Positions 1,403-28,689 of a stretch of DNA of 34,348 nt are shown here, piece after piece. Made by a program: the position numbers and the translations under genes. The notes below the pieces were generated by a model that was not told the DNA's origin, made no database searches, and saw nothing but the letters and a program-made list of their open reading frames with translations. The DNA lies in the IMG/VR virus record IMGVR_UViG_3300005607_000033, positions 1 to 34,348 of that record; one strand, given 5' to 3'. Origin of the DNA: a virus. The stretch's first letter is position 1. Each line of letters begins with the position of its first letter.

Positions 1403-1424
1403 ATAAGGGAGCGGTGAAGCAGAA

Positions 1425-3712: not shown

Positions 3713-4726
3713 ATGGGAGAGCTGAGAGAGATCCGGATGCACGAGCTGGCCACGTTCCGTCGGTGCCCGAAGAAGTACGAGTATGCGTTCGTACGCAATT
3801 GGGAGCCGCTGGTCCCGCCCGAGGTCGTGCGGATCGGCGACTACGTTCACCAGTTCCTTGCGCACGCAGTCGCGTCAGACGCGCGCCCTCAGCCTGTCCC
3901 CCGAAGGGAGGACGAGGACGCCTTCGCGATGGCGGAGGACATCGTGACGCGCTATGTGCAGCACGTAGGTCTCCCTCCAGCGGGCGACGTGATTGCGGTC
4001 GAGGAGGACTACTCTCGGGAGATCTCAGAGCTTGGCGTGACGGTCGCGTTCAAGCCCGACCTCGTGTACTGGGACGAGGCGAGGACACGGTTCGTGATTC
4101 GGGACTACAAGACGGTCGATCAGATTCCACGGGAGCGGACGGAGGACGAGCTCGATCTCCAGCCGCTCGTGTACCTCTGGGGGATGAGGCCCTATCTCAA
4201 TTTGATGGCTATGCTGATCGGGCGGCGACCGGGGACCTGCTCGATTCTCTGGGAGTACGAGTTCCTGCGGCGCGCAGTCCCGCGCGATCCCGACGTGACG
4301 CGCGACGGCCGGGTCTCCCGCGCGCGCATTACGACGACCCGAGAGCGCTACGAGGCGGCGGTTCGGAGGGCCGGAGCGGACCCGGCCGAGTACGCGGACA
4401 TCCTCGATTCCCTGCCTCGCGAGGCGGACTACTTCGGCCGCGAGCGCATCCTGCTGACGCCGGAGGAGCTCGACCGCGCGGAGTCCGAGATCCTGGACTC
4501 TCTGCGGCTCCTGCTCCTGGCCGACCGCCATGACCTGTTTCCGAGGAACCCGATCAAGACGGGCGGGGAGCGGTGCGCGGGGTGTCCGTACTTCCAGCTG
4601 TGCAAGGCGGAGCTTCTGTTAGGACGCGAAGAGAACGAGCAGGCAATTCGCGCGATGGGATACAAGAAGAGAGGAGTCGATGAGGAGGAGGTGACAGCGG
4701 ATGAAGCTGCGAGTGCGTTTGACTAA
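3713..4726 (+). CDS. Cas4/RecB-like PD-(D/E)XK nuclease with Fe-S cluster motif
   Basis: A 337-residue nuclease of the PDDEXK_1/Cas4-AddB type. The N-terminus carries FRRCPKKY with C18. The core has H46 (after RIGDY), D116 in AFKPD and the D131-Y-K133 catalytic motif. The C-terminus has C288-x2-C291-x5-C297. One N-terminal and three C-terminal cysteines are the pattern that holds a 4Fe-4S cluster in Cas4 and AddB. Such enzymes degrade or trim DNA ends with single strands as substrate; in phages they accompany recombination genes. The start is set by GGAGAGGAGGCG upstream of ATG 3713; the reading frame is open further upstream but that part is only antiregister of the polymerase. The gene overlaps the next one by 26 bp. 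There are no cas1/cas2 genes here, so a CRISPR adaptation role is not indicated. Confidence 0.85.
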   Translation: MGELREIRMHELATFRRCPKKYEYAFVRNWEPLVPPEVVRIGDYVHQFLAHAVASDARPQPVPRREDEDAFAMAEDIVTRYVQHVGLPPAGDVIAVEEDYSREISELGVTVAFKPDLVYWDEARTRFVIRDYKTVDQIPRERTEDELDLQPLVYLWGMRPYLNLMAMLIGRRPGTCSILWEYEFLRRAVPRDPDVTRDGRVSRARITTTRERYEAAVRRAGADPAEYADILDSLPREADYFGRERILLTPEELDRAESEILDSLRLLLLADRHDLFPRNPIKTGGERCAGCPYFQLCKAELLLGREENEQAIRAMGYKKRGVDEEEVTADEAASAFD

Positions 4727-4903: not shown

Positions 4904-5746
4904 ATGGCGAAGGGGAACGGGACCGAGAAGATCCTGCTCATCGACACGGAGCGGGGGGCGGGCGGATTCAAGTCGCTCGCGCACGTGACGATCCTCGACG
5001 CCTCGCCGGACACCAAGCAGACAGCCGCCGAGAAGGTCGAGGCTGTCCTGTGGGCGCTCCTCGACCATCCCGAGAAGCTGCAGGGCTATTCGCTTCTCGT
5101 CTTAGACACGATCTCGTCTCTCTCGACCCTCGTTCGCCACGATCTGATGGGCGACGGAAAGCTCGGCATCTGGCAGAACCGGGGCGTGTATAGGGCCGAT
5201 ACGCGGTCGGAGTACCGCGCCACGGCCGACATGGTGAGCCGGATGCTCCAGCATTTCCGGAGGCTCCCCATCGCGACCGTGTTCGTCGCGCACGAGGAGG
5301 AGCGGCTCGACCCCGCGGGCGTCTTGAAGCGCGGCCCGGCGCTGAGCCCCGCTCTGCTCAAGGATGTGGTAGGCTGGAGCCACGTTCTCGCCCACCTCGG
5401 GCAGACGACGCACGCCGTGACGCTCCCGAATGGACGCGAGATCCCGGCCGGGACGAGGCGGCTCAGAGTGGAGCCGGACAACCGCTACATGGCGAAGGCC
5501 AGGAGGAGAGTCGACCTGCCGCCGCTCCCGCCCGTCATCCTGGAGCCGACGCTTCGGGACCTGCGGGAGATTTTAGACGGCACGGGCGAGCCCTACCCGT
5601 GGGCGACCCTGTACGGCCCGCCGGGGGTCGGGAAGACCAGCCTCGTCGTGGGCGCAACCTATGCGCGGCGCTCCGCCGAGGCCGAGGAGGCAGTCGCGAA
5701 GCAGGAAGTGACGGACCGCGTGCGCGGGGAAAGAGGTGAGACGTAG
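4904..5746 (+). CDS. RecA-like (Sak4/AAA_24-type) ATPase with circularly permuted P-loop
   Basis: A 280-residue P-loop ATPase whose motifs occur in permuted order. The protein opens with KILLIDTERG (DTE at 14-16), which in Sak4/AAA_24 proteins is the second strand, after the P-loop. Walker B LLVLD with D68 follows, then the sensor-type strand TVFVAH (H130), then NRYMAKARR and a proline-rich stretch typical of the normal C-terminal part. Only after that comes Walker A, GPPGVGKT at 238-245, with the helix SLVVGATYARR and a charged tail. No other Walker A exists at the N-terminus and no second Walker B follows the C-terminal P-loop. The simplest reading is a circular permutation that keeps the fold. 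ATG 4904 is preferred over GTG 4898 because GAGAGGAGG lies nine bases before it. The gene lies among SSB-like and nuclease genes, so a role in single-strand annealing or recombination is likely. Family: confident; permutation: seen directly; activity: inferred. Confidence 0.85.
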   Translation: MAKGNGTEKILLIDTERGAGGFKSLAHVTILDASPDTKQTAAEKVEAVLWALLDHPEKLQGYSLLVLDTISSLSTLVRHDLMGDGKLGIWQNRGVYRADTRSEYRATADMVSRMLQHFRRLPIATVFVAHEEERLDPAGVLKRGPALSPALLKDVVGWSHVLAHLGQTTHAVTLPNGREIPAGTRRLRVEPDNRYMAKARRRVDLPPLPPVILEPTLRDLREILDGTGEPYPWATLYGPPGVGKTSLVVGATYARRSAEAEEAVAKQEVTDRVRGERGET

Positions 5747-7614: not shown

Positions 7615-8453
7615 TGGCGACCGCGCGCCTCGTGGTCCTGTCCGATCTCCACGTGGGGTCGATCTACGGGCTCTGGCCGGAAGGATTCCGCACGGCCGGG
7701 GGCGGAGCGTATGCGCTCAATCCGGGGCAGGCGTATCTCTGGAAGTGCTGGACCTGGACGCTTGACAAGCTGAGGGAGCTCCGCCCCACAGCCGTGATCC
7801 TGAACGGAGACATTCTCGACGGCCGCCAGCAGGCGCAGAGAGCGACCGAGGCCGTGACGGTGTCGATAACAGATCAGCAGGAAGCGGCCATCGCCCTTCT
7901 GTCGCCCCTCCGTGAGATCGCGCCGACCCTGTTCGGGGTCCAAGGAAGCGAGTACCATGACCAGACGGCAGGGGAAGCGTGCGAGGCGGTCTACAAGGCG
8001 CTCGGGTGCGCGACCTATGACGGCCCGGGGGTCGGATTTTATGGGAAGGAGACGCTCGATCTCAAGGTCGGACACACGATCATCAATGTGTCGCACGGCA
8101 TCAGCGTGTCCGGGGGACTGTACCGTGCGACGGCGCCCGACCGCGAGGGTGTGTGGTCGGCCCTCGCGGGCAAGGAGGGGCGCACGCCCGCCGCGCATGT
8201 CGTGGTGCGGAGCCACGCGCATCACTGGGTGTACGTGCAGCACCCGACGAAGCACATCCTCATCACGCCGTGCTGGCAGCTCCAGACTCGGTACATGCGG
8301 AGGCTCTCGGCCTACCGCATGTTGCCCGACATCGGGTTCGTGACAATAGAAATCGACACGGAGGTGAAGCCGAGCTATGCCGAGGATCCTGTGCGCATCT
8401 CCCGAACCCTCTTCGGGCTCCCCGAGCGACGCCCCGCGGCGCTCAAGCTCTGA
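7614..8453 (+). CDS. Calcineurin-like metallophosphoesterase
   Basis: A 279-residue member of the metallophosphoesterase superfamily. Metal-site motifs: D11-x-H13 in VLSDLHVG, the NGD motif with D66 in ILNGDILDG, a GSEYHD motif at 111-116 where most members have GNH[DE], a later VSHG histidine, and SHAHHW near residue 201. The usual Asn ligand is therefore replaced by Ser at 112 or supplied by neighbouring residues. Members cut phosphoesters in nucleic acids, nucleotides or proteins; phage versions are common but mostly uncharacterised. The ATG overlaps the protease stop (TGATG-type junction), so the two are translationally coupled. A DNA-end or nucleotide-processing role would suit the neighbours, but nothing in the sequence fixes the substrate. 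Confidence 0.85.
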   Translation: MATARLVVLSDLHVGSIYGLWPEGFRTAGGGAYALNPGQAYLWKCWTWTLDKLRELRPTAVILNGDILDGRQQAQRATEAVTVSITDQQEAAIALLSPLREIAPTLFGVQGSEYHDQTAGEACEAVYKALGCATYDGPGVGFYGKETLDLKVGHTIINVSHGISVSGGLYRATAPDREGVWSALAGKEGRTPAAHVVVRSHAHHWVYVQHPTKHILITPCWQLQTRYMRRLSAYRMLPDIGFVTIEIDTEVKPSYAEDPVRISRTLFGLPERRPAALKL

Positions 8454-8679
8454 GAAGCCTGTTCCCGACTGGACGTGGGAGGACCTCGACCGCGCCATCG
8501 GCGCTCCGGGGCCGTCGAGCGACCCCGGCTACACGGTGCGGGAGTACGCCGCTCGGAAGGGGATCCCCGTGCGCACGGCCTATGATAGAATCCGCAAGGC
8601 CGTCGAGCGCGGGAGCCTCATCAAGGGAACCCGCCTGATCGGGGGACGGCGCGTGTCGGTCTACCGTCCCGCGACGTGA
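8377..8679 (+). CDS. Small winged-helix-like DNA-binding protein
   Basis: A 100-residue protein starting at ATG 8377 with GGAGGTGA upstream, overlapping the phosphoesterase gene by 77 bp. The first 45 residues are Pro/Ser-rich. Residues about 52-85 read as a helix-turn-helix: YTVREYAARKGIPVRTAYDR, a recognition helix with IRKAVERGSL, then strands (GTRLIGG, RRVSVYRP) that could form a wing. This suggests a transcription factor or DNA-binding regulator, perhaps switching early to late expression as it is the last gene of the plus-strand arm. Its 3' end overlaps the endolysin 3' end on the other strand by 19 bp. Confidence 0.6.
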   Translation: MPRILCASPEPSSGSPSDAPRRSSSEKPVPDWTWEDLDRAIGAPGPSSDPGYTVREYAARKGIPVRTAYDRIRKAVERGSLIKGTRLIGGRRVSVYRPAT

Positions 8680-9164
8680 TCGATCCCGTTCACGGCGCGC
8701 CGCATCCAGCCGAGCAGGAATGCCCGCAGCGACGGGTTGGACGCGGCGAGCTGCGCGTACTCGACCGCCAGCCGAGCGCGGATCTCCTGGAGGAGTGCCC
8801 GAGGGTTGCACCCGTTCGCCGCTGCGGCCGTGATCGGGCCGAACACGCCGTCGACTGCGATGCGTGTCGGCCCGACGGCATTCACGGCCTCCTGCAGGAT
8901 GCGCACGGCCCTGGCGGTCCCCAGGTTCACGGCCGCGTCGAACACCTTGGTCGCCACGTCTTGGTCGAGGAGCGCGTCGTACTGCCAGTAGTCGCGCTTG
9001 TAGATCGCCTTCGCCTGCTCCAGGGTCAGATTCTTGATGTCGAGCTCCGGGTACTGGCGCTTGCTGATCCCGTACTTCGTCTCCCCGCCCGGATCGCGCG
9101 GGTCGAACGAGTACCCGCCCTCATGCGCGAGCACGATAGGGATCGCAAGGTCGAACGAGGCCAT
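8661..9164 (-). CDS. Endolysin, GH108-type muramidase with PG-binding C-terminal domain
   Basis: A 167-residue lysis enzyme. The N-terminus carries the glycoside hydrolase 108 signature: AHEGGYSFDPRDPGG with catalytic Glu at 15, then TKYGISKRQYP and a DYWQYD segment. Residues about 88-160 match the family's peptidoglycan-binding companion domain (NLGTARAVRILQ, VDGVFGPIT). It cuts the glycan strands of peptidoglycan for release of progeny. There is no signal peptide, so it should rely on the holin-like protein encoded just upstream (9169-9393). ATG 9164 is chosen because GGAGGT lies just before it and the family begins at MASFDLAIPI. It is the last gene of the late operon and overlaps the convergent plus-strand gene. 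Confidence 0.9.
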   Translation of the reverse strand: MASFDLAIPIVLAHEGGYSFDPRDPGGETKYGISKRQYPELDIKNLTLEQAKAIYKRDYWQYDALLDQDVATKVFDAAVNLGTARAVRILQEAVNAVGPTRIAVDGVFGPITAAAANGCNPRALLQEIRARLAVEYAQLAASNPSLRAFLLGWMRRAVNGIDHVAGR

Positions 9165-9168
9165 GCGC

Positions 9169-9393
9169 TTACCTCCGGAAGAGCGCGCTGAAGACGGCCG
9201 CGCCGAATGCCACATAGAGGCCGATGACCAGCTGCCAGAGGAGCTTGAGCTGAGCAGGGAGATGGTTAGTAACGTGAGAGCGCACGACAGCCAGGTCTTC
9301 CTCCAGCTTGGCAAGGCGCGCGTGGATCCCGTCACGAAACTCCTCCTTCGCTTCGAGCGTGGCGAGGCGCTCTTCCACCGTGGGCGCATCCAT
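9169..9393 (-). CDS. Holin-like protein (XhlA-type, coiled coil plus one membrane segment)
   Basis: A 74-residue protein. Residues about 5-45 are a charged coiled-coil region (TVEERLATLEAKEEF, ARLAKLEEDLAVVRSHV); residues about 51-70 form one membrane span (LLWQLVIGLYVAFGAAVF) with a short basic tail ALFRR. This topology is that of hemolysin XhlA/small phage holin families. The start at 9393 follows GGAGGTGAC; the frame is open further upstream but without this character. The gene lies four bases before the endolysin start, the usual holin-endolysin pair. It would permeabilise the inner membrane and give the endolysin access to the wall. Confidence 0.72.
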   Translation of the reverse strand: MDAPTVEERLATLEAKEEFRDGIHARLAKLEEDLAVVRSHVTNHLPAQLKLLWQLVIGLYVAFGAAVFSALFRR

Positions 9394-9401
9394 GGATGTC
9401 G

Positions 9402-12400
9402 TCACCTCCCTCCGAGCGAGGGGGGCTTCGGCCCCTTCGGGAGACCGGGGAGGCCGAGGCCCCCGGAGACCTGTCCTTCTGTCGCATAGAACGGTGTGAG
9501 ACCGAACAGATAGAGCCACAGCTGGTCGCGCGGAATCTGCAGACCCGCCTTGAGATTGAAAATGTTTACGATTGGGGTGGGAAGGATATCGCTTCCGACG
9601 AGCTTGGCAAGATCTTCAAAGTCGACTGGCTTGTGCCCTGGTCCCAAAAGAGTTATTGCATCAGCAAGCATTCGCACGGGAACGCCTGATTTCGACTTGG
9701 CCTCCCAGACAACGGGGCGGAAATCGGGCTTCGCCTGCGGATCTCCTGCTCTCTTCAGATATTCCTGGTAGGCATATTCTGCCAGGTGATATCCGAGAAT
9801 CTCGGCGTCTGTCGTGTACTCCTTGATGCGGAAGTACTCGCCCTTTCTCTTCCTCTTGTCGATCTTTTCTCCGATTCTGATGTCGAACTTGTGGTATCCG
9901 GGATTATTCGCGGCCCAGGTTCCTGTGACGGCATACTGGATAGAGTTCGTCCACAGAAATTGCAGGACCATAGCACGAAAATTGATGGCATTGGCGACCT
10001 TCATCATTACGAGGCGTTCTTCGGGAGAGACCGCCGCAGGCAGGTATCGCCCCCCTACGAGTTTTCCTCCGATGCGGGTTCCTGATTGCGCCAGCGAGGC
10101 GTATTCTCCGAACGTGTAATGTATAGCAAAGAGAAGGGTGTTGCCGTATTTCTGGAGCCACAGCGGGAGCATCGAGCGCGGAATGCTCCCAAACCGAGTG
10201 GCCACGAGGGCGGCGGCCACGCGCCCCGCGCGTTCTTCAGGAAGACGGACGCGCACGCCGTTCTCATAGACATCCTTCTCCATGAGGAGTGCCTTCAGGC
10301 GCTTGTACGCGAATCCTTGGAGAGCGGGAGCGAGACGCTGGAAGAGCAGATCTTCGGCGACCCGGTAGACGGCCTTGCCGACCGGAAGAATGATTGTCGA
10401 CGTGGCGAGAGCGCGCACCCACGGATATCTCTCTGCGAGCCGATTGAAGAGTTCTCCCGAGAATGTCGAGAACTCACGGTGGAGAACGTCGACATCGAGG
10501 CCGTTCTGCTTCATCTCGGCATAGATGGGATCGAGGCGCCGAAACTCCTCATACGCACGAATGACGTCCGGCCACTTCCACGGCAGAAGGATATCGGGGG
10601 CGATGGAGGCAGCCGCTCCGATCAGGGTGCGGCCGTGGAAGATCGGGTTCCAGCCTATGATGAGCTTGCGGAGATCCGACGGAATCCCCCAAAGAGGGCG
10701 CCCTCCTGAGGGACCGACATAGCGGTCGAGGACCTCAACGAGCGGCTTCGGCGCATACATCGTGTAGGGCCGGAGCTCGCTGACAGAGAGGACCTGCTCG
10801 TATCCAGGAAGCTTGACAGGAGAGAGCAGACCAAGGTTCTCGAAGACGTTCAGGATGGAGTGCGTGGCGGTTGCGTCGGCTGAGTGCGTGATTCGGCGCG
10901 TGATGATGTCGAGGGGGTCGTAGACGGGCTTCAGCCCAATCCTCTCAGCAAGAGCATGGTTCAGCTTCTGCGGCTTCACGTGGTGGAATTTCGTAATGAG
11001 ACCCCGGCGCTCCTCGCTGATCTTTGTTCCCACTTCAAGATAGGACCCTGATTCTCCGAAGAGGTCCTTTGAGAGCTCGTTCTCGAATCCGTCGGCGAGG
11101 GACGCGGCTTCCTCAGCCGTCTTCCCCGCCGCCTCGGCAACCTTCATGAAGGCCGCTTTCGGTGTGTGGTTGGGCAGGAGGCCGCGGTACGTTTGCAGGA
11201 AATCTCCAACATTCTCGATGCCTGCTGTTTTCGCGAGATAGCCGGGAAGGAGAGCATCTCCGCGCTCAATCCACAACTTCGCGAGCGCAGTGGGGATCTC
11301 CTCGGGGTTCTTGAAGAAGAGCGCGAGGTACCGGTCCCGCTTGGGATAGACGTATCCCACTGCCTTCTCCGCCTTATAGAGGGCATCGAGGACGGCTGTC
11401 ACATAGGACGCCATGCGTTTGACCCCTTCGGGGGCGTTTGGATCTGGAGTCAAGACCTGGCGGCCGACCCGCTCCCAATCTGCTTTTGTAACGACACCGA
11501 CTCGCCGACCTTCGTCGACGAGGAATCTCCTGATCTTCTCGATGTAAAACTGAACAGTGGATACGTAAGACTCTGCGCCTTTGACGGCCTCTAGCCCTTT
11601 GACACCCTCTTCAGTGAGCCCCCCCTCGCGCAAAACCTGCGCATCTTTTGAAATGAGATAGCCGGGAAAATTCACGCGCGTTAGGGCGCTTACAAGAGGC
11701 TGAAGGATCGGCCGAATCGCACGGAGTTCGGGAGGAACGTTGACAATGTATCGATAGGGAGAGATCTTTGTCAGCGCATCGGCGACTTGCTCCTTTACCT
11801 CATTCGGGCCCTGTGGGGGGCGGTTCGCTTCGGTCGGACCCCGGCTCGTGTAGACGGAGTCGGTATACGTCACTCCCGACTGAGGGTCGATGGCGGGGCT
11901 TCGCCCGCGCACGGCTCCGACCGATTCGGCCATCTCGCGCTTGGCGGTCGCCTCGGCCGCCTTCTCCGCGTAGGTCGCCTTCCCCGTGCGAGGCGAAATG
12001 AGGCGCTGGAGATCGCGTGGGAGCTCTCCCACGCGGGGAGACGGCCCCGGAGGGTCGAGACGCCAGTGCGGCTCGGGCAAAGGCGCAGGGTGCAGGGTAA
12101 CAGTAGGTTGCGGTGGGAGCCCCGGAGACAGCGTTCCGGGAGACTGCACGACCCTGATCTGGGTCTTGCCGCCCGCGTGCTCGGCGACTCGCCATGTTCC
12201 GGCGGGCGTTTCTCCGAGAGGTTCCGCCAGCGGAGAGCGGACGATCTGCGGAGCGGGAACGCGCACCTCGGGGCGGAGCGGGGTCGCTCCGACCGGGGCT
12301 CCGGGGCGCGTGGCAGGAGGTGTCGGCGTCAGGACCTTCTGCGCGACGGCGGAGGTCGCCGCCCGCGCGGCCGCGTGCGCCGCCTCTCCCTGCGCTCCGG

Positions 12401-13745
12401 TCGGAGGGTGCGCGGCGGGGGTCGATGCCGCTTCTCTCTCCAGATCCGCTATAGCGCGGGCGCGAGCGAGATTGCCCTTGAGCACGAAGAACCCCTTGAG
12501 CCCCGGCAACAGGAGAAGCGTGTTTGTTACGGTCAGCTGAGGATCGCGCTTGAACTCTTCGAACCACCAGGCCCAGACATTCTCCGGGATCTTCTCGGCC
12601 AGCAGGAGCGTGGCCTTCGCGGGAGGGATGTTGTGCGCCCTTGCCCACGCATAGTAGTCTTCGATGTACTGGCGCGCCGCCTGAACGGTTGGAAAGGCGT
12701 CCTTCTCGTAGGCTTTCGCCGCGGCCACGTGGCCCGCGACGACCTGTTCAGCCTTTTGGCGGTCTCCGATGAGCGTATAGTACACGCCCTGAACGATCCC
12801 CGCGACATCGTTCGCGATCCCTCCGAGAATCGCCACCGCATCGTGGTGAATGGCGGCGATGGGCTGGAGAGCTCCCGCGACGAACTGGCCTCCGACGATC
12901 AGGGGCTGCCGCACGACGGGGGTCACGCCGGGGAATGTCAGGGCCCGAGCGAACTTGTTCCACAGGCGGTCGACGGCTTCAACGTAATTGTGCGTCTCGG
13001 TTGGGAGCGCGGCCCCCTTGTCGATGTTCGCAATGACCCGGGAGTACCCGCCATTGTAGGCCGCGAGCGCCATCTTCCATGCCGTTCGGTCGTCCATCGC
13101 GGGGTAGCGCGTCGTCAGATCATCGTGCAGCCTCCGCAGATAGAGCGCTCCGTACAGGAGCTGGAGACCTGGCTTGGAGGCAACCTGCTGGGGATCGACA
13201 CCGAGCCCTCTCACGGTCTCCGGCATGAGCTGGGTCAGCCCGAACGCTCCCGCCTTCGAGACGGCCTTCGGATTCCACCCCGACTCCTGAGTGACGAGTC
13301 CCAAGAACAGAGGCACCGGGATCCCGAACGCTTGCGCCGTCTTCACAGCTTGTGCGTACCAGGGCGAACGCGGAATGCCGGGCGGAGGCTCCGGCGCGGT
13401 CGGTGTCGGAGCAGGCGCCGACGGCGCTGTGAGCCGGACCCCGCCGGGCGGGAGCTGCTCGCGGGTTGGGATCTCGCGCACATCGGCGCCGGCGCCGGTC
13501 GGGGGGATCGCGCGCGTGCCTGCGTCATCCTCGCTCTTCTGAAGAGGAGGCGGTGCGCCTCTTACAGAGATGATAGGCGAGGGCGTGCCTGCGTCATCCT
13601 CGCTCTTCTGAAGAGGAGGCGGTGCGCCTCTTACAGAGATGATAGGCGAGGGCGTGCTAGGCGCATCTCGCACGGATCCAATCAGCGGGGACTGCGACGG
13701 AATCTCGCTCGGCGCGCCTCTGACAGCGATGATGGGATCAGCCAT
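9402..13745 (-). CDS. Giant internal virion protein with lytic transglycosylase domain (1447 aa)
   Basis: The largest gene of the window. Residues 1-95 form a Pro-rich, repetitive leader with several copies of a [P/S]-I-x-x-VRGAP motif. Residues about 115-265 form an SLT/goose-type lysozyme domain: catalytic E154 in TQESGWNP, then AFGLTQLMPETV and AAYNGGY. A hydrophobic region follows near residue 410 (NTLLLLPGLKGFFVL), then an Ala/Pro-rich linker with VAQKVLTPTPP, and a long helical C-terminal half with aromatic-rich stretches. Size, domain order and place near the end of the structural operon resemble T7 gp16-type ejection proteins, which enter the cell envelope at infection and open peptidoglycan locally. 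ATG 13745 overlaps the stop of the upstream gene (TGATG). The codons for the C-terminal third look less GC-rich than the flanks. Lytic domain: confident; ejection role: inference. Confidence 0.8.
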   Translation of the reverse strand: MADPIIAVRGAPSEIPSQSPLIGSVRDAPSTPSPIISVRGAPPPLQKSEDDAGTPSPIISVRGAPPPLQKSEDDAGTRAIPPTGAGADVREIPTREQLPPGGVRLTAPSAPAPTPTAPEPPPGIPRSPWYAQAVKTAQAFGIPVPLFLGLVTQESGWNPKAVSKAGAFGLTQLMPETVRGLGVDPQQVASKPGLQLLYGALYLRRLHDDLTTRYPAMDDRTAWKMALAAYNGGYSRVIANIDKGAALPTETHNYVEAVDRLWNKFARALTFPGVTPVVRQPLIVGGQFVAGALQPIAAIHHDAVAILGGIANDVAGIVQGVYYTLIGDRQKAEQVVAGHVAAAKAYEKDAFPTVQAARQYIEDYYAWARAHNIPPAKATLLLAEKIPENVWAWWFEEFKRDPQLTVTNTLLLLPGLKGFFVLKGNLARARAIADLEREAASTPAAHPPTGAQGEAAHAAARAATSAVAQKVLTPTPPATRPGAPVGATPLRPEVRVPAPQIVRSPLAEPLGETPAGTWRVAEHAGGKTQIRVVQSPGTLSPGLPPQPTVTLHPAPLPEPHWRLDPPGPSPRVGELPRDLQRLISPRTGKATYAEKAAEATAKREMAESVGAVRGRSPAIDPQSGVTYTDSVYTSRGPTEANRPPQGPNEVKEQVADALTKISPYRYIVNVPPELRAIRPILQPLVSALTRVNFPGYLISKDAQVLREGGLTEEGVKGLEAVKGAESYVSTVQFYIEKIRRFLVDEGRRVGVVTKADWERVGRQVLTPDPNAPEGVKRMASYVTAVLDALYKAEKAVGYVYPKRDRYLALFFKNPEEIPTALAKLWIERGDALLPGYLAKTAGIENVGDFLQTYRGLLPNHTPKAAFMKVAEAAGKTAEEAASLADGFENELSKDLFGESGSYLEVGTKISEERRGLITKFHHVKPQKLNHALAERIGLKPVYDPLDIITRRITHSADATATHSILNVFENLGLLSPVKLPGYEQVLSVSELRPYTMYAPKPLVEVLDRYVGPSGGRPLWGIPSDLRKLIIGWNPIFHGRTLIGAAASIAPDILLPWKWPDVIRAYEEFRRLDPIYAEMKQNGLDVDVLHREFSTFSGELFNRLAERYPWVRALATSTIILPVGKAVYRVAEDLLFQRLAPALQGFAYKRLKALLMEKDVYENGVRVRLPEERAGRVAAALVATRFGSIPRSMLPLWLQKYGNTLLFAIHYTFGEYASLAQSGTRIGGKLVGGRYLPAAVSPEERLVMMKVANAINFRAMVLQFLWTNSIQYAVTGTWAANNPGYHKFDIRIGEKIDKRKRKGEYFRIKEYTTDAEILGYHLAEYAYQEYLKRAGDPQAKPDFRPVVWEAKSKSGVPVRMLADAITLLGPGHKPVDFEDLAKLVGSDILPTPIVNIFNLKAGLQIPRDQLWLYLFGLTPFYATEGQVSGGLGLPGLPKGPKPPSLGGR
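13514..13651 (-). repeat. Two identical 69-bp tandem repeats in the giant virion protein
   Basis: Two adjacent 69-bp units (13514-13582 and 13583-13651) encode a 23-residue repeat containing PIISVRGAP and LQKSEDDAG. The unit length keeps the frame. Degenerate copies of the VRGAP core lie further toward the N-terminus (IIAVRGAP, LIGSVRDAP). Perfect identity suggests recent duplication and possible length variation. Confidence 0.9.
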
Positions 13746-15250
13746 CACTTCACCTGCGCCCACCACGTTGTGCCATCAGACAGCCAGTCGCGTCCATCTC
13801 GGGTCGTTGCGATTTGATTCGGAAATCGAGACGCCGGAGGCATTCCCGGAGGGGGCGCGACACCAGCCCGCCATTTGCTTCCGTCCGCAAGAGTCTTAAT
13901 CCCGCCTCCTGCTCCTCCTGATTGCGGTGCGGGCTGTGCAGGGGGACTCTGCGATGGCGTGGGCTGAGCCGGTGCCTGAGACGCTCCTGCTCCTGTGGAG
14001 CTCGGTGTCTGCTGCGATGTCTGCTGTGACAGAGCGTCATCAATGATCTGGAGATACTGCCGCTGAAGAGCTTTGAGCTGGTCGATCCCGCTCTGCGCCT
14101 CGCTGATCCTCTGGTCGATCTCGTCGAGCATCTCCTTTCCCTCGTCGCGCCCGATCTGCTTCGTCGCGATGGCCGACTTGACGATCAGGCGCTGACGTTG
14201 CAGATTCACGATCTCGCGCTGAGCGTTCGTAATGTTCGTTGTCAGGTTTGTGACGAGCGCTTTCGCGGCGTTCAGGTTTGCGACTGTCGGCTTCTGGAGG
14301 AGAGCATCTGCGCGCTTGAGATTCGCCTCCGAGTTCTGCAGGGCTGCGAACGCCTTCTTGTGGGAATCCTCGATGCCTGCGAGAATCGCCTGCGCACGGG
14401 CCGACGCAACCTGCGTCTGCGCCTTCGTGAGATCGACCTTTGCCTCCGTCAAAGTCTTCAGTGCGCCGAGGTAGTCCCCGTGCGCGAGAAGGTCCTGCGC
14501 GCGCGCCAGAGCTTCCTTCGAGCGGGCGGCCTCCATGTCCGTGCGGCCCTTGAGCTCGTCGATTCGCGCCTGCACGAGCTGGGAGATCTCGGTGACGGCG
14601 GCCTTCGCCTCTTCGGGAATCTCAAACCCATAACGCTTCGCGACGGTTTCGAGAGCCGCAAGCGCCCCAAGCTTCTGCATGGGTCCGGCATTGGGATTGT
14701 ACAGGGCCTGCGTGACTTGTGCGCTGAGCTTGAGCGCTGCATCCGGCGAGATGTACGGCGGCGCGTTCAGGAATGCGTTCGGCAGGTCGATTCCTGTCTC
14801 CTCTTTCAGCGTCTGCGCATACGCCCTGCGAGCGTCGGGCGGCATCGCGAGGAGGTCCGGGAGCTTGTCGAGGATCGTTGCGCGCTCTTTCGGGCCATAT
14901 GCCAGTGTGGCGACGGTCCGCGGCGTGATCCCTCCTGGGGGAATGGGGATGTTCAGCCCCTTGAACAGGTCCGAGAGCTTCGCTTGGACTGTCGGGTCCT
15001 GCAGGAGGGCCGGGTTCCCCTGGAGGAGCGGGAGCATCGTCTGGAGAGTCTCCTGCAGCTGCTTCTGCTGCTCGGTCTGGAGCTGGATCTCCCGGAGCTT
15101 CTGCTCCGTGATCAGCCTCTCGTACTCCGGCTTCTGGAGCTGCCCCTGCGTGTAGCCCGACACCGCCGACTGCAGGAGCTGGCCCAGGAGGTCCGGCGCG
15201 AATCCCTGCGGCGGAACGGGCGGAAGCGGTCCAATCTGAGGAATCGGCAT
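13745..15250 (-). CDS. Coiled-coil internal virion protein candidate (501 aa)
   Basis: A 501-residue, strongly helical protein. The N-terminus is Pro-rich (IPQIGPLPPVPPQG), followed by Gln/Glu-rich coiled coil (residues about 45-75, with EQKLREIQLQTEQQKQLQE), a central part with GGITPRTVATLAYGP, and long coiled coils from about 215 to 400 (LKGRTDMEAARSKEALARA, NAQREIVNLQRQRLIV). Then a Gln/Ser/Pro linker and a compact C-terminal WLSDGTTWWAQVK. No family is recognised. Its place directly before the transglycosylase protein, and overlapping its start, suggests a second ejection/internal core protein. There is no signal peptide or membrane span. Confidence 0.65.
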   Translation of the reverse strand: MPIPQIGPLPPVPPQGFAPDLLGQLLQSAVSGYTQGQLQKPEYERLITEQKLREIQLQTEQQKQLQETLQTMLPLLQGNPALLQDPTVQAKLSDLFKGLNIPIPPGGITPRTVATLAYGPKERATILDKLPDLLAMPPDARRAYAQTLKEETGIDLPNAFLNAPPYISPDAALKLSAQVTQALYNPNAGPMQKLGALAALETVAKRYGFEIPEEAKAAVTEISQLVQARIDELKGRTDMEAARSKEALARAQDLLAHGDYLGALKTLTEAKVDLTKAQTQVASARAQAILAGIEDSHKKAFAALQNSEANLKRADALLQKPTVANLNAAKALVTNLTTNITNAQREIVNLQRQRLIVKSAIATKQIGRDEGKEMLDEIDQRISEAQSGIDQLKALQRQYLQIIDDALSQQTSQQTPSSTGAGASQAPAQPTPSQSPPAQPAPQSGGAGGGIKTLADGSKWRAGVAPPPGMPPASRFPNQIATTRDGRDWLSDGTTWWAQVK

Positions 15251-15251
15251 G

Positions 15252-16556
15252 TCAGCGCACCTCGAATCCCATGGACGTCAGCCGCGCGATGTCCTTGCGC
15301 TCGTGCTCGCCGAAGTCCGTTCTCCACCAGGCGTGCGGGATCTCGATCTCTTTCGTCGTCGCGTACACGGACGCGCAGGCTTTCTCGACCGTCGGCCCCT
15401 TCCCGAGCGCGACGCCGACGTTGCCGTCCGGTGCCGCGACGATCAGCTGACCGTCCCGGCGGCCGACCCCGAACGCCCCAAAGCGCTCGCCGATGATGTC
15501 CGGGATCGCCCCCACAGGGAGGCCGACCGGCGACTCCTTGCGCGCGACATCGCCCGCAAAGGGGTACGGCGGCACGCCGACATGCACGCCTCCCCAGTAC
15601 TCGCCCCTCCGGAACGGAAGCTCCGTGAGCGTCCCGGCGGCGAGCTCGGCGAGCACGTCCCCCAGGGGCCGCGTGAGCCCCTGCAGGTAGACCGCGTCGG
15701 CGTCCCACCCGAACCGCGGTCCCCACTCCAGGTAGTAGAGCTTCTCGTCCCGCTCCGAGATGACGCCGTTCACGTCGTACTCTCCGGGAGGGAGCTCAAG
15801 CCGCCGGAACAGCTCGGCGATGTCCTTCGCGCGCAGGAGCGCCGCAACCCGGGGCTCGTCGCTCTCGTACGCCCACATCAGCGAGGTCGCGGCCCCCGTG
15901 TTCGGGCCGAGGTCACCGGTGTACGCCTTCTTGTATTCCAGCAGCGCCATGTACCCGATGATGTCGGTCCCGTTCCACCACCAGGCCGTGTCGATCACGA
16001 CGCCGTCGATTCTCTTCTGCAGGACGCCTGGCATGTCGCCGTACGTCTTCCGGAGGTACCGGAGCATCCGGAGGAGGTCCTCGCGGTCCTTCGCGCCGTA
16101 GGTCGTCTCGGACGGGAGACCCTTCTTCGTCGGCTTCCAGAACCACCGAGCCCCGCGCGAGGATCGGAGAACCTCGCTCGCCTCGGCCTCGGAGATCGAC
16201 GCGAAGGCGTGCGTCTCGGGGATCCGGATCCCGAGGAGCGACGCGACCTTGAGGCCGTAGGTGCGCTCCTCCAGGCGGTCCCCGATCTCGCTCGCTCCGA
16301 GCACGCGCGCGCCGCGCGATCTCAGCTGGTCCGCGATCTTCCCGAACCCCGTGAGGTCGAAGACGAAGACCGTCCGCTCGTCCTGGCGGCCCCACCGGAG
16401 GAGGGCGTCGAGCGAGTCCGCGCGGTCGACGATTCCCTCGCCGACGCTCCGGAAGTCAGGCTCCTTGATCCAGACGCGGACCTCGTGCCCCTCGGCAAGA
16501 AGCCGCGCCCACCAGCTGAGGCTCAGGCCCTCCGTGGAGACGAACGCGAACCGCAC
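15252..16556 (-). CDS. PurD-like ATP-grasp ligase in the virion gene block
   Basis: A 434-residue protein that follows phosphoribosylamine-glycine ligase (GARS, PurD) over its full length. The N-domain has MRFAFVST and ARLLAEGHEVRVWI; the ATP-grasp core has WFWKPTKKG and LQKRIDGVV; the GARS signature appears as GDLGPNTG (normally PNTGGMG); the metal-site segment reads YLEWGPRFG where PurD has EYNxRFG, keeping Glu but replacing Asn with Gly; the C-terminal lobe ends with WWRTDFGE, matching RTDIG. GTG 16556 is the start, two bases after the upstream stop. ATP-grasp enzymes join a carboxylate to an amine with ATP. Lying alone among virion proteins, with no other purine genes, this diverged enzyme probably modifies a protein, nucleotide or small molecule rather than making purines. 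Fold: confident; substrate: unknown. Confidence 0.78.
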   Translation of the reverse strand: MRFAFVSTEGLSLSWWARLLAEGHEVRVWIKEPDFRSVGEGIVDRADSLDALLRWGRQDERTVFVFDLTGFGKIADQLRSRGARVLGASEIGDRLEERTYGLKVASLLGIRIPETHAFASISEAEASEVLRSSRGARWFWKPTKKGLPSETTYGAKDREDLLRMLRYLRKTYGDMPGVLQKRIDGVVIDTAWWWNGTDIIGYMALLEYKKAYTGDLGPNTGAATSLMWAYESDEPRVAALLRAKDIAELFRRLELPPGEYDVNGVISERDEKLYYLEWGPRFGWDADAVYLQGLTRPLGDVLAELAAGTLTELPFRRGEYWGGVHVGVPPYPFAGDVARKESPVGLPVGAIPDIIGERFGAFGVGRRDGQLIVAAPDGNVGVALGKGPTVEKACASVYATTKEIEIPHAWWRTDFGEHERKDIARLTSMGFEVR

Positions 16557-16558
16557 GG

Positions 16559-17392
16559 CTACGTCGGAGGCGCATAGGTCTGTTGCGTCGGCGGCGTGTA
16601 ATACGTGTCTGCGCCCGGCCCGTAGTACTCCTCGGACGCGCGCGACACGCTCGGCGCAGGCCAGGCCGCTCCGACGTCGATGCCGGGGGTCGGCGCGGCA
16701 GTCCTCTTAGGGTTGTACAGCCCCATCGCGTAGTTCTGGAGCACCTGTTGCACGCCCGCAAACGGGTTCCCCATGCTGGCGAGCGCCTGCGACGCTCCGT
16801 ATCCGGCAGTCCCGTACATGTTCCCGAGGTTCTGGAGACCGCCCATCGCCTGCCCCGTGATATCGCGACCGAGCGCCGTGTACTGGCCCGCCTGACCGAG
16901 GAGATTGGTCAGAATGCCGAGCGCCTGCTGCATCCGCTGGTCCTGCAGGAGGTTCGACTGAATGTTCATGTTCGACACCGCCGAGAGCGCCTGCTCCCCG
17001 AGCCTCTGCGCGAGCTCGGCCTTCTGGCCCTCCGAGAGGTCGGACCTGGCGGCGAGCTCGTCGACCATGTTCGCGAGCCCCGAGAGGATCGTCTGCAGGT
17101 TCACCTGCTGGTAGGCGTTCGGCTGGAGCAGGTTCGCGACCACGTACTGGGCCGTCGGCGTGACGGGGAGCCCCACGGCCTGCGACAGCGCGGATGCGAC
17201 CGCCCGCTCTAGGGGCTGGAAGACGCCCCCGTACTGGCTGAGGAGCGTGTTGATAAGGTCGCGCTCGGCCTGCGCAATGGCCGTCTGCCCTTCTGACGCC
17301 TGCTGCGCGGCCGAGGCCGCCTGCTGCTGAGGGCCGCGGTTGAAGAGCCCGCTGATGATCGATCCCGCAAGCGGGAGCAGGAAGTTCAGCAT
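16559..17392 (-). CDS. Internal virion/ejection-like protein (277 aa)
   Basis: A 277-residue protein with a hydrophobic N-terminus (LNFLLPLAGSIISGLF), a Gln/Ala-rich helical part (QQQAASAAQQASEGQTAIAQ), a middle region rich in LGQ and NLLQ helices, and a Tyr/Pro-rich tail (EEYYGPGADTYYTPP). There is no recognised family. The combination of one N-terminal membrane-like helix and long amphipathic helices near transglycosylase and coiled-coil virion proteins resembles small podovirus ejection proteins such as T7 gp14. That is inference from composition and position. Confidence 0.6.
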   Translation of the reverse strand: MLNFLLPLAGSIISGLFNRGPQQQAASAAQQASEGQTAIAQAERDLINTLLSQYGGVFQPLERAVASALSQAVGLPVTPTAQYVVANLLQPNAYQQVNLQTILSGLANMVDELAARSDLSEGQKAELAQRLGEQALSAVSNMNIQSNLLQDQRMQQALGILTNLLGQAGQYTALGRDITGQAMGGLQNLGNMYGTAGYGASQALASMGNPFAGVQQVLQNYAMGLYNPKRTAAPTPGIDVGAAWPAPSVSRASEEYYGPGADTYYTPPTQQTYAPPT

Positions 17393-19138: not shown

Positions 19139-20923
19139 CTACATCGGCACCGTCAGCTCAGAGTCCGGCCACCCGACGAGCAGGAGCCGCTGAATCTCGA
19201 TCTGGATCGTCGACGACGTGGTGATCGACACCTGCGCCTGGTACGCCTTGTGGGGCGGCGGAATGCTGATCTGCTTGCGGATCGGGTACGCCGAGAGGTC
19301 AACGCTCCGCGAGGTCGACGCCTGGTTCACGCCGGGGTCGAACACGACCGTCACGGTCGCGAGCTGGCCGCTCTGGATCGGCGCCACGAGCTCGATGTAC
19401 CGGTACGTCTTCTTCGCCTGCGGCATCCCGCTGTCGTCGATCTTGCCGACGAACGACGCGCCGATGCTCGCGCCGAGGTCCGTGCTCGCGGCGAACCACG
19501 TGTCGATGTTCCCGAGGCCCGGCCTGCTCCCGTCGACCTCCTCAACCGACGGGTCGTAGTACGCGGTCTCGGCCGCCCACCCGATCTTGTACCACTCCTG
19601 GGTCGCGATGTTGTAGCAGTACGTCACGCCCTGCGCGGGCAGGCTCAGGTACCAGACGCCGTTCCGGTAGAATCCGACCGCGCGCGAGAGGTCGGACGTC
19701 GACAGCGCGAGGAGGGTCGACTGGATGTTCGTGCTGATCCGCGTCGGCTGCTGGCCGTCGAACATCCAGGCGCCGTCCTTGCTCAACCAGAACACGACCC
19801 CGAGCGCGACCGTGATGGAGCGGGGCGCGATGCACCCGATGTCCAGGATCTTGCGATGCACGAACGACGTCGGATCGTCCCCGTACAGCGCCCACGTGCT
19901 GAACTGCTTGAAGAAGACGAGGATAGACCCCAGGGACGCGAGCCCCTGCGCGAAGTCCTGGACGCTCGATTTCCCGACCGAGAAGTACTGGTTCAGCAGG
20001 TCCCAGCCCCACGGCTCCTTGTAATTGCTGAACCAGCACCCACTCGGGTCTCCGGGCGCCCCGAACACGAACAGGCGCTCCTTGTGGGCGGCGATGTACC
20101 AGGCGCCCACCGGAGGCTGGTCGCGCACGAGCACGAGCTGCTGGCCGAGGTTGCTGTCCGCCACGTTGTCCGTGAACGTCGTCGTCGTGTTGTCGGTGAT
20201 CGTGCCCACGAGCTTCCACACCGAGGACGTCCCGCCGAGCCGGTAGATGTTGCGCTGCGTGACCTGCGGGTCCGAGCTCGTCGGAATCCCCGACAGGCTC
20301 GCCGACTGGTTCGTGAGCGTGAGCGGCCCGGCAATCGGCCCAGGACCGGATTCCTGCGTCGCGTTCCCGAACGTCACGCGCCAGTAGTAGGGGTTGCCCT
20401 GGCTGTTGAGATTGCCCGCTCCTCCGGCCGCGACCGTCGGCGCCACCGTGGGCGCGGCGATCTGCGCGAGCGTGATCGCGAGGGTCGGGTCGATCTTGAC
20501 CATCGGATCCTTGCCGTTCACGACGAACAGCCAGTAGTTCGATCCCGTCCCCGCCTGCGCGAAGTAGGTCGGCTGCGAGGCCGTCGGCGTGACGTTCGAG
20601 GGGTACGTCAGCTGCGCCGGAGCGGTCGTCGTCGTCCACTGCCACAGGGCCGCCGCGCCCGTCGACGTGTTCGCGGCCCCGATGTAGACGGGCGACTGCG
20701 GCGCGAGGCGGTCGAACCGCGTGAAGCCGAGGCAGGCCGACGGGAGCGCGCCCGTGTTCGCGACCCGGCCGAGGACCGTCACGTAGCTCCCGAGCTTCTG
20801 ATCGGGAACGAGGTTCAGGACATCGACGCACCGCTTCGGGTCGATGAAATAGGACGCCGTGAAGACATCGAGCCCCTTGAACGGGCCGAGGTCGACCAGC
20901 ACCTGGGGGCGGCCAATCGGCAC
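19139..20923 (-). CDS. Tail hub/nozzle beta-propeller protein (P22 gp10/T7 gp12-like)
   Basis: A 594-residue protein beginning with the pattern of podovirus stabilisation/nozzle proteins: LVDLGPFKGLDVFTASYFID and a loop that names loci of the tail surface. Repeating propeller-like strands follow: WLFVVNGKDPMVKID, PYYWRVTFGNATQE, then the strongly aromatic KERLFVFGAPGDPSG and CWFSNYKEPWGWD, VFWLSKDGAWMFDG, GVWYLSLPAQGVTYCYN and WYKIGWAAE. This resembles the gp10-type tail stabilisation proteins of podoviruses, which attach to the adaptor below the portal and close the DNA channel. Some strands look like fibronectin-type inserts. It lies downstream of the tail-fibre and adaptor genes, as expected. 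Confidence 0.68.
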   Translation of the reverse strand: MPIGRPQVLVDLGPFKGLDVFTASYFIDPKRCVDVLNLVPDQKLGSYVTVLGRVANTGALPSACLGFTRFDRLAPQSPVYIGAANTSTGAAALWQWTTTTAPAQLTYPSNVTPTASQPTYFAQAGTGSNYWLFVVNGKDPMVKIDPTLAITLAQIAAPTVAPTVAAGGAGNLNSQGNPYYWRVTFGNATQESGPGPIAGPLTLTNQSASLSGIPTSSDPQVTQRNIYRLGGTSSVWKLVGTITDNTTTTFTDNVADSNLGQQLVLVRDQPPVGAWYIAAHKERLFVFGAPGDPSGCWFSNYKEPWGWDLLNQYFSVGKSSVQDFAQGLASLGSILVFFKQFSTWALYGDDPTSFVHRKILDIGCIAPRSITVALGVVFWLSKDGAWMFDGQQPTRISTNIQSTLLALSTSDLSRAVGFYRNGVWYLSLPAQGVTYCYNIATQEWYKIGWAAETAYYDPSVEEVDGSRPGLGNIDTWFAASTDLGASIGASFVGKIDDSGMPQAKKTYRYIELVAPIQSGQLATVTVVFDPGVNQASTSRSVDLSAYPIRKQISIPPPHKAYQAQVSITTSSTIQIEIQRLLLVGWPDSELTVPM

Positions 20924-26918: not shown

Positions 26919-27783
26919 ACTCGCTGCTCAGAAGCTCATCGAGCTCTTTGTCTTCGAGCCCCCCGAGCCGCGCGACATCCCGAATTGCCTCCAGGGTCTT
27001 CGCGTCGGCCTGCGGAGCCCGTCGTTCGGCCGTCCCTCCCGGAGCTCCCCCCGTCCCGCCCATCACGGGCGGCGTCTGCTGAGGGAGCTTCACGCCCCGT
27101 CTCTGGGCGCGATCCAGGCTCTGGGCGTAGGCGATGCCCATCGCCGTGAAGAGGATCTCGCCGAGCACGCGGTCGAGCTGCGCGGGGTCCATGCCGTCGA
27201 GGTGCCTCTGAGCCACGAGGCGGTCGAAGTAGGTCTCGACGCTTGCGAAGAAGGGGACGGAGGAGCGAGCGCGACTCTTGAAGCCCTCGATGCTCTGCCG
27301 GAGCGCGAGCTGCTTGACAGGACCGAGCGCCTTCTCCAGCGCGGCCGTGACGGCGGCCTGCGAGGTCATGAGGGTCGCGGCGAGGGGGTCCTGCTCGTAC
27401 AGCCGCTGCCACTGCTCCCGCGCCTTCTCCAGGTCCGCTGGTTGGGGCTGAGGCTGGACCGGCTGAGGAGCGGGCTGAGGCTGCGGAGCGATGTAGCCGC
27501 GCGCGAGGGCTGCTCGGATCTCGTGGATCTTGGTCGGATCGCGCTCCAGCTCGTCGGCGAGGGCATCGAGTCCGAGCTCGCGGTAGCGTCGGACTTGCCG
27601 CTCGACCTCACGGAAACGTGCGAGGGGAACGACCTTGCTATCCGGTTCGCCAGACTCCGCCGTCGGAACTCCTGACACGGCAGGCTCTGACGTCCTTTCC
27701 CCTTCCTCACCCGTCGGTGCAGCAGGCGTCGACGCCGGGGACTCGTCGAGGAGAGGTACACCGAACTCGTTCTCAGCTTGCAT
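26917..27783 (-). CDS. Scaffolding protein candidate
   Basis: A 288-residue strongly acidic, low-hydrophobicity protein starting MQAENEFGVPLL. The N-terminal 45 residues are Ser/Pro/Glu-rich, followed by helical blocks (VVPLARFREVERQVRRY, ALADELERDPTKIHEIRAAL), a Pro/Gln-rich linker (QPQPAPQPVQPQPQPA), and helices at residues about 115-215. The tail has GGTGGAPGG and ends with acidic DKELDELLSSE. This disordered-helical, acidic profile beside the capsid gene is typical of scaffolds that are later removed from the procapsid. It overlaps the LAGLIDADG gene by 11 bp. Confidence 0.68.
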   Translation of the reverse strand: MQAENEFGVPLLDESPASTPAAPTGEEGERTSEPAVSGVPTAESGEPDSKVVPLARFREVERQVRRYRELGLDALADELERDPTKIHEIRAALARGYIAPQPQPAPQPVQPQPQPADLEKAREQWQRLYEQDPLAATLMTSQAAVTAALEKALGPVKQLALRQSIEGFKSRARSSVPFFASVETYFDRLVAQRHLDGMDPAQLDRVLGEILFTAMGIAYAQSLDRAQRRGVKLPQQTPPVMGGTGGAPGGTAERRAPQADAKTLEAIRDVARLGGLEDKELDELLSSE

Positions 27784-28297
27784 TGTATCCCACCGCCTTT
27801 AAGTTGTCAATAGCCCTGGCAGGGCCCGTCCGGTTCAGTTCTTTTAGCTGGCGGCGCGTCTCCATTACGAATGCCCTCGCAATGAGCGAGAAAGGCCGGC
27901 CAGATTTTCCTTTCTGATACAGTTCCCCCCTCGCCCGAAGGTGTTGCGCGACATCCCGAAGGTTGAGGAGCAGACTCGCCTGCGACGTCTTAATCACCAG
28001 ATATGGGTACAGGCGGGACAGAATGTAATTAGCCGAGTCTCCCGTCCAGAGTGCCATTCGAGTCTCTTTATGCGCCGAAGTAGATCGGCGATTAACTGTG
28101 ACTCTTGCAAAAAACTTGTCTCTCAACCACTCCATGACCCGCGGGTTCGTGTTTGTTACTCTCAGCGCTGGGCTTAGCGTGCATTGCCGCCCGCCATTCA
28201 GATACACAGATCCCTCCCCGTCAATAAGCCCAGCGAGGTATGCCCATTCAGTTTCGGTTATCTCGTCGTATCGAGGCTCTTCAGGAACTCCATCCAT
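27773..28297 (-). CDS. LAGLIDADG homing endonuclease (single-motif)
   Basis: A 174-residue protein with one LAGLIDADG motif, YLAGLIDGEGSVYL at residues 20-33; the catalytic acid is the Glu at 28. Conserved strand/helix elements follow (ALRVTNTNPRVMEWLRDKF, SANYILSRLYPYLVIK, FVMETRRQL). One motif means it should act as a homodimer, cutting near-palindromic DNA. The ATG at 28297 follows GGAGGT; the frame is open upstream but only as an antiregister of the HNH gene. Its DNA looks clearly less GC-rich than the neighbouring structural genes, a sign of recent entry. It overlaps the HNH gene by 40 bp and the scaffold gene by 11 bp. Its target may be the homologous junction in other phages, protecting this insertion. 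Confidence 0.86.
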   Translation of the reverse strand: MDGVPEEPRYDEITETEWAYLAGLIDGEGSVYLNGGRQCTLSPALRVTNTNPRVMEWLRDKFFARVTVNRRSTSAHKETRMALWTGDSANYILSRLYPYLVIKTSQASLLLNLRDVAQHLRARGELYQKGKSGRPFSLIARAFVMETRRQLKELNRTGPARAIDNLKAVGYNAS

Positions 28298-28689
28298 CGC
28301 GATGACCTCCGACTCTGCAGGTATGACGTGATCTTGCTGAGCCAACGCATCTCGTCCCGTTGCGGAACCATCTTCATGCACATCCTGCACAGCAGCCCTC
28401 GGATCTCGCCGTCCTCCGCACGGCGATCCACGGAGAGCCGAGCCTGCCGGCCATCGCGCCCGCAGAGAGCACACACGCCCCGCTGGCGGCGCCAGAGCGC
28501 CATGTATTGGTCGTAGCTGACCCGACCCCTCTCGCAGACCGGAGCAACCGCTCTCCTCCAAGCGTCTTCCTGCTCGACACAGGCGCTGCAGAGGCGATAC
28601 CGCACGCCGTGCTTCGTCAGCGGGAATTTCGCCTCGGGCAGGCACCGCCCGCACAAGCCACAGCGAACGAGAATGTCCGCCTCATTCAA
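28258..28689 (-). CDS. Degenerate Endo VII-type HNH protein (zinc sites kept, His/Asn lost)
   Basis: A 143-residue protein starting with TTG at 28689 (TTGAATGA, coupled to the upstream stop). An N-terminal zinc knuckle has C10/C13 and C34/C37 around FPLTKHGVRYRL. A second zinc site has C73/C76 and C101/C104 in the order of phage Endo VII-type HNH proteins. The active-site segment reads LSVDRRAEDGEIRGLLC, whereas family members have VDH-x-H and an Asn after the last Cys pair. Here both His positions are Arg/Ala (D88 remains) and Asn is Met (105). The nuclease is thus likely inactive, leaving a DNA-binding protein or a decaying gene. It overlaps the LAGLIDADG gene by 40 bp. Confidence 0.78.
   Translation of the reverse strand: MNEADILVRCGLCGRCLPEAKFPLTKHGVRYRLCSACVEQEDAWRRAVAPVCERGRVSYDQYMALWRRQRGVCALCGRDGRQARLSVDRRAEDGEIRGLLCRMCMKMVPQRDEMRWLSKITSYLQSRRSSRWMEFLKSLDTTR

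Follow-up and report, generated by a model that had tools for sequence, protein, structure and literature searches.

A PurD-like ATP-grasp protein family linked to the DNA-ejection cassette of uncultured viruses

Why would a virus keep a relative of PurD, the GAR synthetase (GARS) of the purine pathway, among its virion genes? The question arises from the IMG/VR record IMGVR_UViG_3300005607_000033, of which a stretch of 34,348 nucleotides (the window) was analysed. A sequence-only reading had described one of its genes as coding for a full-length PurD-type ATP-grasp enzyme that is not an ordinary GARS, has lost an Asn of the metal site and might add an amino acid or peptide to a capsid protein, a DNA base or a small molecule. 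The features discussed here are collected in Table 1. An antisense ORF overlaps the PurD-like coding frame in this high-GC DNA. An identical PurD-like protein is encoded in another IMG/VR record (32,126 bases).

Table 1. Coordinates of the features in the window and in other records.
Record	Feature	Coordinates	Strand	Details
Window	PurD-like ATP-grasp protein (putative ligase)	15252..16556	-	434 aa, GTG start (ORF listing); profile, PDB and structure matches
Window	antisense ORF	15249..16577	+	
Window	virion/ejection-type protein, Ala/Gln-rich	16559..17392	-	277 aa; directly upstream, 2 bp gap; position and composition only
Window	virion/ejection-type protein	13745..15250	-	501 aa; directly downstream, 1 bp gap; position only
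Window	large internal virion protein, lytic transglycosylase (SLT)	9402..13766	-	1454 aa; PF01464 E 2.9e-18; PHROG 342 (internal virion protein with endolysin domain) E 8.5e-12
Window	stabilisation/head-closure type protein heading the cassette	19139..20923	-	PHROG 511 (internal virion protein) 6.7e-25; PHROG 578 (head closure) 3.1e-13; family cluster 3 profile E 2.1e-8
Window	uracil-DNA glycosylase fused to family A DNA polymerase	1425..3662	+	PF03167 8.7e-25; PF00476 3.5e-87
Window	likely free-standing homing endonuclease	27773..28654	-	ORF with LAGLIDGEGSVY, between the portal and capsid genes; seen by eye
MW202796.1	PurD-like gene	42140..43471		unannotated in this circular phage genome
L111	stand-alone bacterial copy	7986..9275		
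L114	ligase ORF with intein	8390..10663		757 aa
L136	GNAT	5191..5661		
L133	Asp/Asn beta-hydroxylase-type protein	3892..4482		
L174	methyltransferase + GT9 heptosyltransferase domains	347..1912		521 aa; cluster 10 (7 loci)

The window protein carries all three GARS motifs that had been picked out by eye: GPNTG at residues 217-221, LEWGPRFG at 276-283 and RTDFG at 412-416. In profile searches it matched TIGR00877 (purD) with 29.3 bits (E 3.7e-7; the cut-off is 288 bits) and GARS_C with an E-value of 3.6e-5, and PHROGs returned no family for it. A single-sequence search of the PDB found the GAR synthetase 2yrw (E 2.7e-4). These single-sequence matches are weak but specific, and the resemblance to PurD goes beyond chance. 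The profile of the family described below (53 sequences) matched 11 PDB entries; all 11 were PurD/GARS, the best being 2xcl (E 1.2e-36).

The predicted structure of the window protein (model m3b043f7a17e7) has a pLDDT of 79.8 and a pTM of 0.81, with residues 335-374 unreliable. GAR synthetases rank first in Foldseek. In VIA-align the top 13 structural rows are all PurD (Z 27.7-32.3; rmsd 3.3-5.1 over 361-389 aligned residues), followed by PurK (Z 24.5), and the alignment to PurD begins at residue 1, the N-terminal domain included. The model thus has the PurD fold over its full length, both the ATP-grasp part and the C domain, and together with the TIGR00877, GARS_C and 2yrw matches it bears out the claim of a full-length PurD-type ATP-grasp protein. 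In BFVD the model found no full-length match, the best TMq among the 50 matches listed being 0.48.

By sequence comparison the window gene is the outlying member of a large PurD-like family of uncultured viruses. Scans of IMG/VR for relatives, which began from the phage record MW202796, gave 49, 175 (80 kept) and 373 (80 kept) sequences, counts that overlap and are not additive. Among 50,697 phage records searched, MW202796 was the sole family member found; it is the one named phage record that matches the window protein (24.5% identity). The six other matches that were scored were rejected as family members, being genuine PurDs with 464-596 bits against TIGR00877. Locus L054 was likewise rejected: its gene sits in a purine operon and is a genuine PurD. 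The phage-filed records MT838306, OR845008, OQ572412 and others carry ordinary purD, one of them within a purine operon, probably because bacterial DNA has contaminated the collection.

A tree was built from 56 family members and seven PurDs, and in it a fully supported, very long branch divides the two groups. The end branch of the window copy measures 3.68 changes per column. Its pairing with a bacterial row (98/99) is unsure, as both are long-branched and the tree contains only seven PurDs. The bacterial row is a stand-alone copy in a Betaproteobacteria MAG (L111), where it adjoins a leucine-degradation-like cluster; the same MAG has its own purD (555 bits against TIGR00877). No second bacterial copy was found in the class of this MAG, the one positive among 274 genomes being the MAG itself, and the L111 copy is possibly a capture from phage or a misassembly.

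Residue conservation was counted in 56 representatives below 75% identity, reduced from 182 rows through 132, with same-place duplicates (L003, L115, L117-L123, L125), the intein-bearing L114, proteins shorter than 400 aa and exact copies left out. Invariant in all 56 are E96, R98, K141, Q180, E207, K209 and K210, and also G217, G221, D261, E277, R281, R412 and D414. Passages of PMC8880213 give Glu100, Lys103, Lys143, Glu185 and Lys214 as ATP/Mg residues of A. aeolicus PurD, Glu192 as an ATP residue, and Asp212, Arg287 and Glu292 as glycine-site residues. The mapping to the family was read from the 2yw2 alignment of the family profile, in which E96, R98, K141, Q180 and K209 align with the first five residues, and E207 and R281 with Asp212 and Arg287. 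Of these, Glu100, Lys143, Lys214 and Arg287 persist, and the family has Arg for Lys103, Gln for Glu185 and Glu for Asp212. E187, the equivalent of Glu192, is kept in 55 of the 56 representatives and is Val in the window. The ATP- and Mg-binding residues are conserved across the family. The glycine site of PurD is incomplete: its Arg is kept (R281), its Asp is Glu207, and Glu292 is gone.

The Asn of the metal-site ExN motif is absent from the window protein (ExG, with Gly279), as the sequence-only reading had noted, but its loss is not particular to this gene: the family as a whole has exchanged it, for Thr in 55 of 56 representatives. E. coli PurT (EVS) and PurK (ELA) are likewise without this Asn, and passages of PMC4431377 describe ATP-grasp proteins in which it is sometimes swapped for polar residues, so the change does not mark the enzyme as inactive. 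In the family, D261 (56/56) and N263 (55/56) stand where the PurD controls carry Tyr/Phe and Gly, and DVN takes the place of PurD's YAG. D-alanine--D-alanine ligase (DdlB) has an Asp at the place matching D261, on the strand before its LE motif (compare GYIDVNCII..G..PLEFTMRPGW in the family). The overall alignment with DdlB is very weak, however, with no overall sequence similarity (-1.1 bits), and the likeness may be convergent. A metal site rebuilt in the family, with D261 placed as in DdlB, is plausible.

Other changes are greater. The R and E of the N-terminal GxGGREHA motif, which has a role in PRA binding, are present in 7/7 PurD controls and absent from the family. The family has conserved N-domain residues of its own (H24, G41 and W55 invariant, N68 in 54/56), and these, together with the lost REH, suggest that the acceptor differs from that of PurD. 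The GDPE loop of the glycine site has been replaced as well. The lost REH, the gained Asp261 and the replaced GDPE are stronger differences from PurD than the loss of Asn. The view that the protein is not an ordinary GARS is supported by these changes and by its score of about a tenth of the purD cut-off.

In the window, the gene belongs to a same-strand late block of terminase large subunit, SU10-type portal, major capsid protein, stabilisation/head-closure protein and small proteins, followed by the 277-aa protein, the PurD-like gene, the 501-aa protein and the 1454-aa transglycosylase protein. With gaps of two and one bp to its neighbours, it lies among virion genes as had been claimed. Neither flanking protein has a PHROG or Pfam match, and the profiles of the family's neighbour clusters do not recognise them.

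Same-strand, tight packing between virion genes recurs in divergent viruses. Neighbourhoods were placed for 51 of the 56 representatives (the gene caller missed L001, L111, L140, L141 and L194). Of the 49 neighbourhoods having an upstream gene, 41 show a recurrent cassette cluster at -1 or -2, where the clusters counted as ejection-type are our choice by size and place; a single recurrent cluster (cl4) matches PHROG 598 (DNA ejection) and the rest are ejection-type by size and place. Homologues do sit in virion blocks, so their absence, which would have spoken against the sequence-only reading, is not what is seen. The usual order is a stabilisation protein, an optional GNAT or Asp/Asn hydroxylase type, a small ejection-type protein, a protein of ~480 aa, one of 500-1500 aa, the ligase and a tail-fibre-like gene. 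Cluster 0 or 17 lies directly 3' of the ligase in 19/51 neighbourhoods. Where the distance to an upstream gene could be measured (48 representatives), the ligase start overlaps the upstream stop by 4 bases in 29. The window order differs, the ligase standing before the 501-aa and large internal proteins and not after the large one, which points to a link with the cassette rather than with one partner. The gene is linked to the DNA-ejection cassette rather than to the capsid. At the seven cluster 10 loci, the protein with methyltransferase and heptosyltransferase domains is encoded upstream of the stabilisation gene; it possibly serves virion glycosylation.

On the most likely reading, to which we give an even chance, the protein is an active ligase of PurD descent, from a phage-specific subfamily, that uses ATP to join an amino acid to an acceptor other than PurD's, and that modifies a component of the ejection apparatus or is packaged and ejected with it. 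Computation shows the fold, the family, the conserved catalytic residues, the cassette and the selection; the activity is inferred, and the acceptor is guessed from context. By homology, ATP would phosphorylate a small carboxylate to an acyl-phosphate. The carboxylate is probably that of an amino acid bound by Arg281 and Glu207, and the amine of the acceptor would then displace the phosphate. This acceptor should not be assumed to be phosphoribosylamine, given an N-terminal domain with its own conserved residues in place of the PurD motif. The ligase would be made late and is apparently translationally coupled to the DNA-ejection proteins, which makes a virion component, presumably a protein, the first suspect as acceptor. 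Modification of the ejection apparatus, or travel with it, would then be its most likely role. A fuller scenario, in which a purine enzyme was turned into a dedicated ligase attaching an amino acid to the ejection machinery, sometimes with GNAT and an Asp/Asn hydroxylase, in a large uncultured-phage lineage, is doubtful as a whole. A literature search, most subscription journals lying outside it, found no paper that places a PurD-like ligase among ejection genes.

The main rival to a virion-component acceptor is a late ATP-grasp ligase that acts on a small molecule or host target (it might amidate, for example, a metabolite, a polyamine, a cell-wall precursor or a host protein), perhaps as anti-defence, and sits in the late operon for timing only. 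We regard this as possible, if on the unlikely side. Small-molecule chemistry is also what PurD carries out, and the alignment of the model with PurD takes in the N-terminal domain too. At some loci the same ejection cassette includes other modifying enzymes: among the 30 neighbourhoods reaching six genes upstream, 17 have a GNAT (PHROG 1249; cluster 1, for example the L136 gene of Table 1) and 8 have a protein of the Asp/Asn beta-hydroxylase type (PF05118, 8.5e-15; cluster 8, for example the L133 gene). Passages of PMC4431377 read linkage of ATP-grasp and GNAT genes as pointing to the modification of peptides or metabolites. However, the neighbours beyond the ejection cassette are not constant, no metabolic partner recurs, and the window has no GNAT or hydroxylase profile match.

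Rather improbable is a degenerate or purely structural protein, in which the PurD fold would have become an inert component of the virion or of its assembly, if only in the window virus. Compared with the family consensus, the window copy has Ser for K149, Val for E187, Ala for E222, Gly for T279 and Asp for P285. Because K149, E187, E222 and T279 are lost and the branch is very long, this copy may be altered or inactive in its virus, or possibly retuned; its activity is less certain, and the claim for the family is firmer than that for the window protein. Yet even the window copy retains K141, E207, K209, K210, D261, E277 and R281, and no catalytic residue varies among the 56 divergent members. 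The family is under strong purifying selection, with a median dN/dS of 0.069 and a maximum of 0.213 in 371 close pairs (85-98.5% identity), values that are uninformative on the window's isolated copy, which is without a close relative. In L114 an intein interrupts GPNTG between GPN and TG, beginning in a Cys right after GPN and ending before TGEMGT, and includes a LAGLIDADG_3 domain (E 1.9e-6). Inteins are usually located in functional motifs, and this placement supports GPNTG as a working site.

It is very unlikely that the gene is a conventional purD, an auxiliary metabolic gene that would raise purine synthesis in infected cells. Viral purD/GART genes, which may or may not belong to the family described here, have been reported as purine metabolic genes in snow and ocean viruses (PMC11097641, PMC11360552). 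Against this, the PurD-like gene is present in 21/21 virus records at 27.6 to 115.4 bits against TIGR00877, none over the cut-off and all far from the genuine PurDs above, and neither the REH motif nor the GDPE loop nor the Asn remains. The same 21 records (20 over 40 kb and the window; their completeness is not given and they may be fragments) contain neither AIRS (purM/purL) nor Formyl_trans_N (purN), for which 14/14 and 12/14 control genomes were positive, and the gene is placed in an ejection cassette. The absence of purine pathway partners, first remarked in the window, thus extends to all of these records, and the gene is probably not one of purine metabolism. Least probable of all, at very long odds, is a DNA-base hypermodification enzyme adding an amino acid to a phage base: some phages do attach amino acids to bases, but this gene lies in the late operon instead of with replication genes, and no base-modification gene recurs among the neighbour clusters, most of which are unannotated.

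Among known systems, PurD (TIGR00877; PF01071, PF02843) is closest, sharing the whole fold over residues 1-424, the ATP lysine, Glu96, Lys209, Glu277, Arg281, GPNTG and the C-terminal RxDxG. The family differs in its scores far below the cut-off, in the loss of GxGGREHA, the ExN Asn, Glu292 and GDPE, in DVN for YAG and in its phage late-gene context. Phage R2K and LUZ24-like ATP-grasp/amidoligase genes also encode ATP-grasp ligases, presumed to form peptide-like bonds. They are not shown to descend from PurD, and in the LUZ24-like UFV-P2 the ATP-grasp gene is in the early module, on the strand opposite to the virion genes. The cassette resembles the P22/T7-type ejection cassettes in its stabilisation protein, small ejection protein (PHROG 598), mid-size and large proteins and tail fibre-like gene, whereas the review passages of PMC8954989 name no ligase among ejection genes.

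Automatic annotation could call this widespread phage enzyme purD and so tally it as a purine metabolic gene, where its residues and neighbourhood say otherwise. The reports of virus-enriched purD/GART (PMC11360552, PMC11097641) need a recheck against the PurD-like family. The family offers a natural experiment in re-targeting the PurD active site (Asn out, Asp in) and is a concrete candidate for the covalent modification of phage ejection proteins. If this is true, the ejection apparatus of a large lineage of uncultured phages would undergo chemical maturation.
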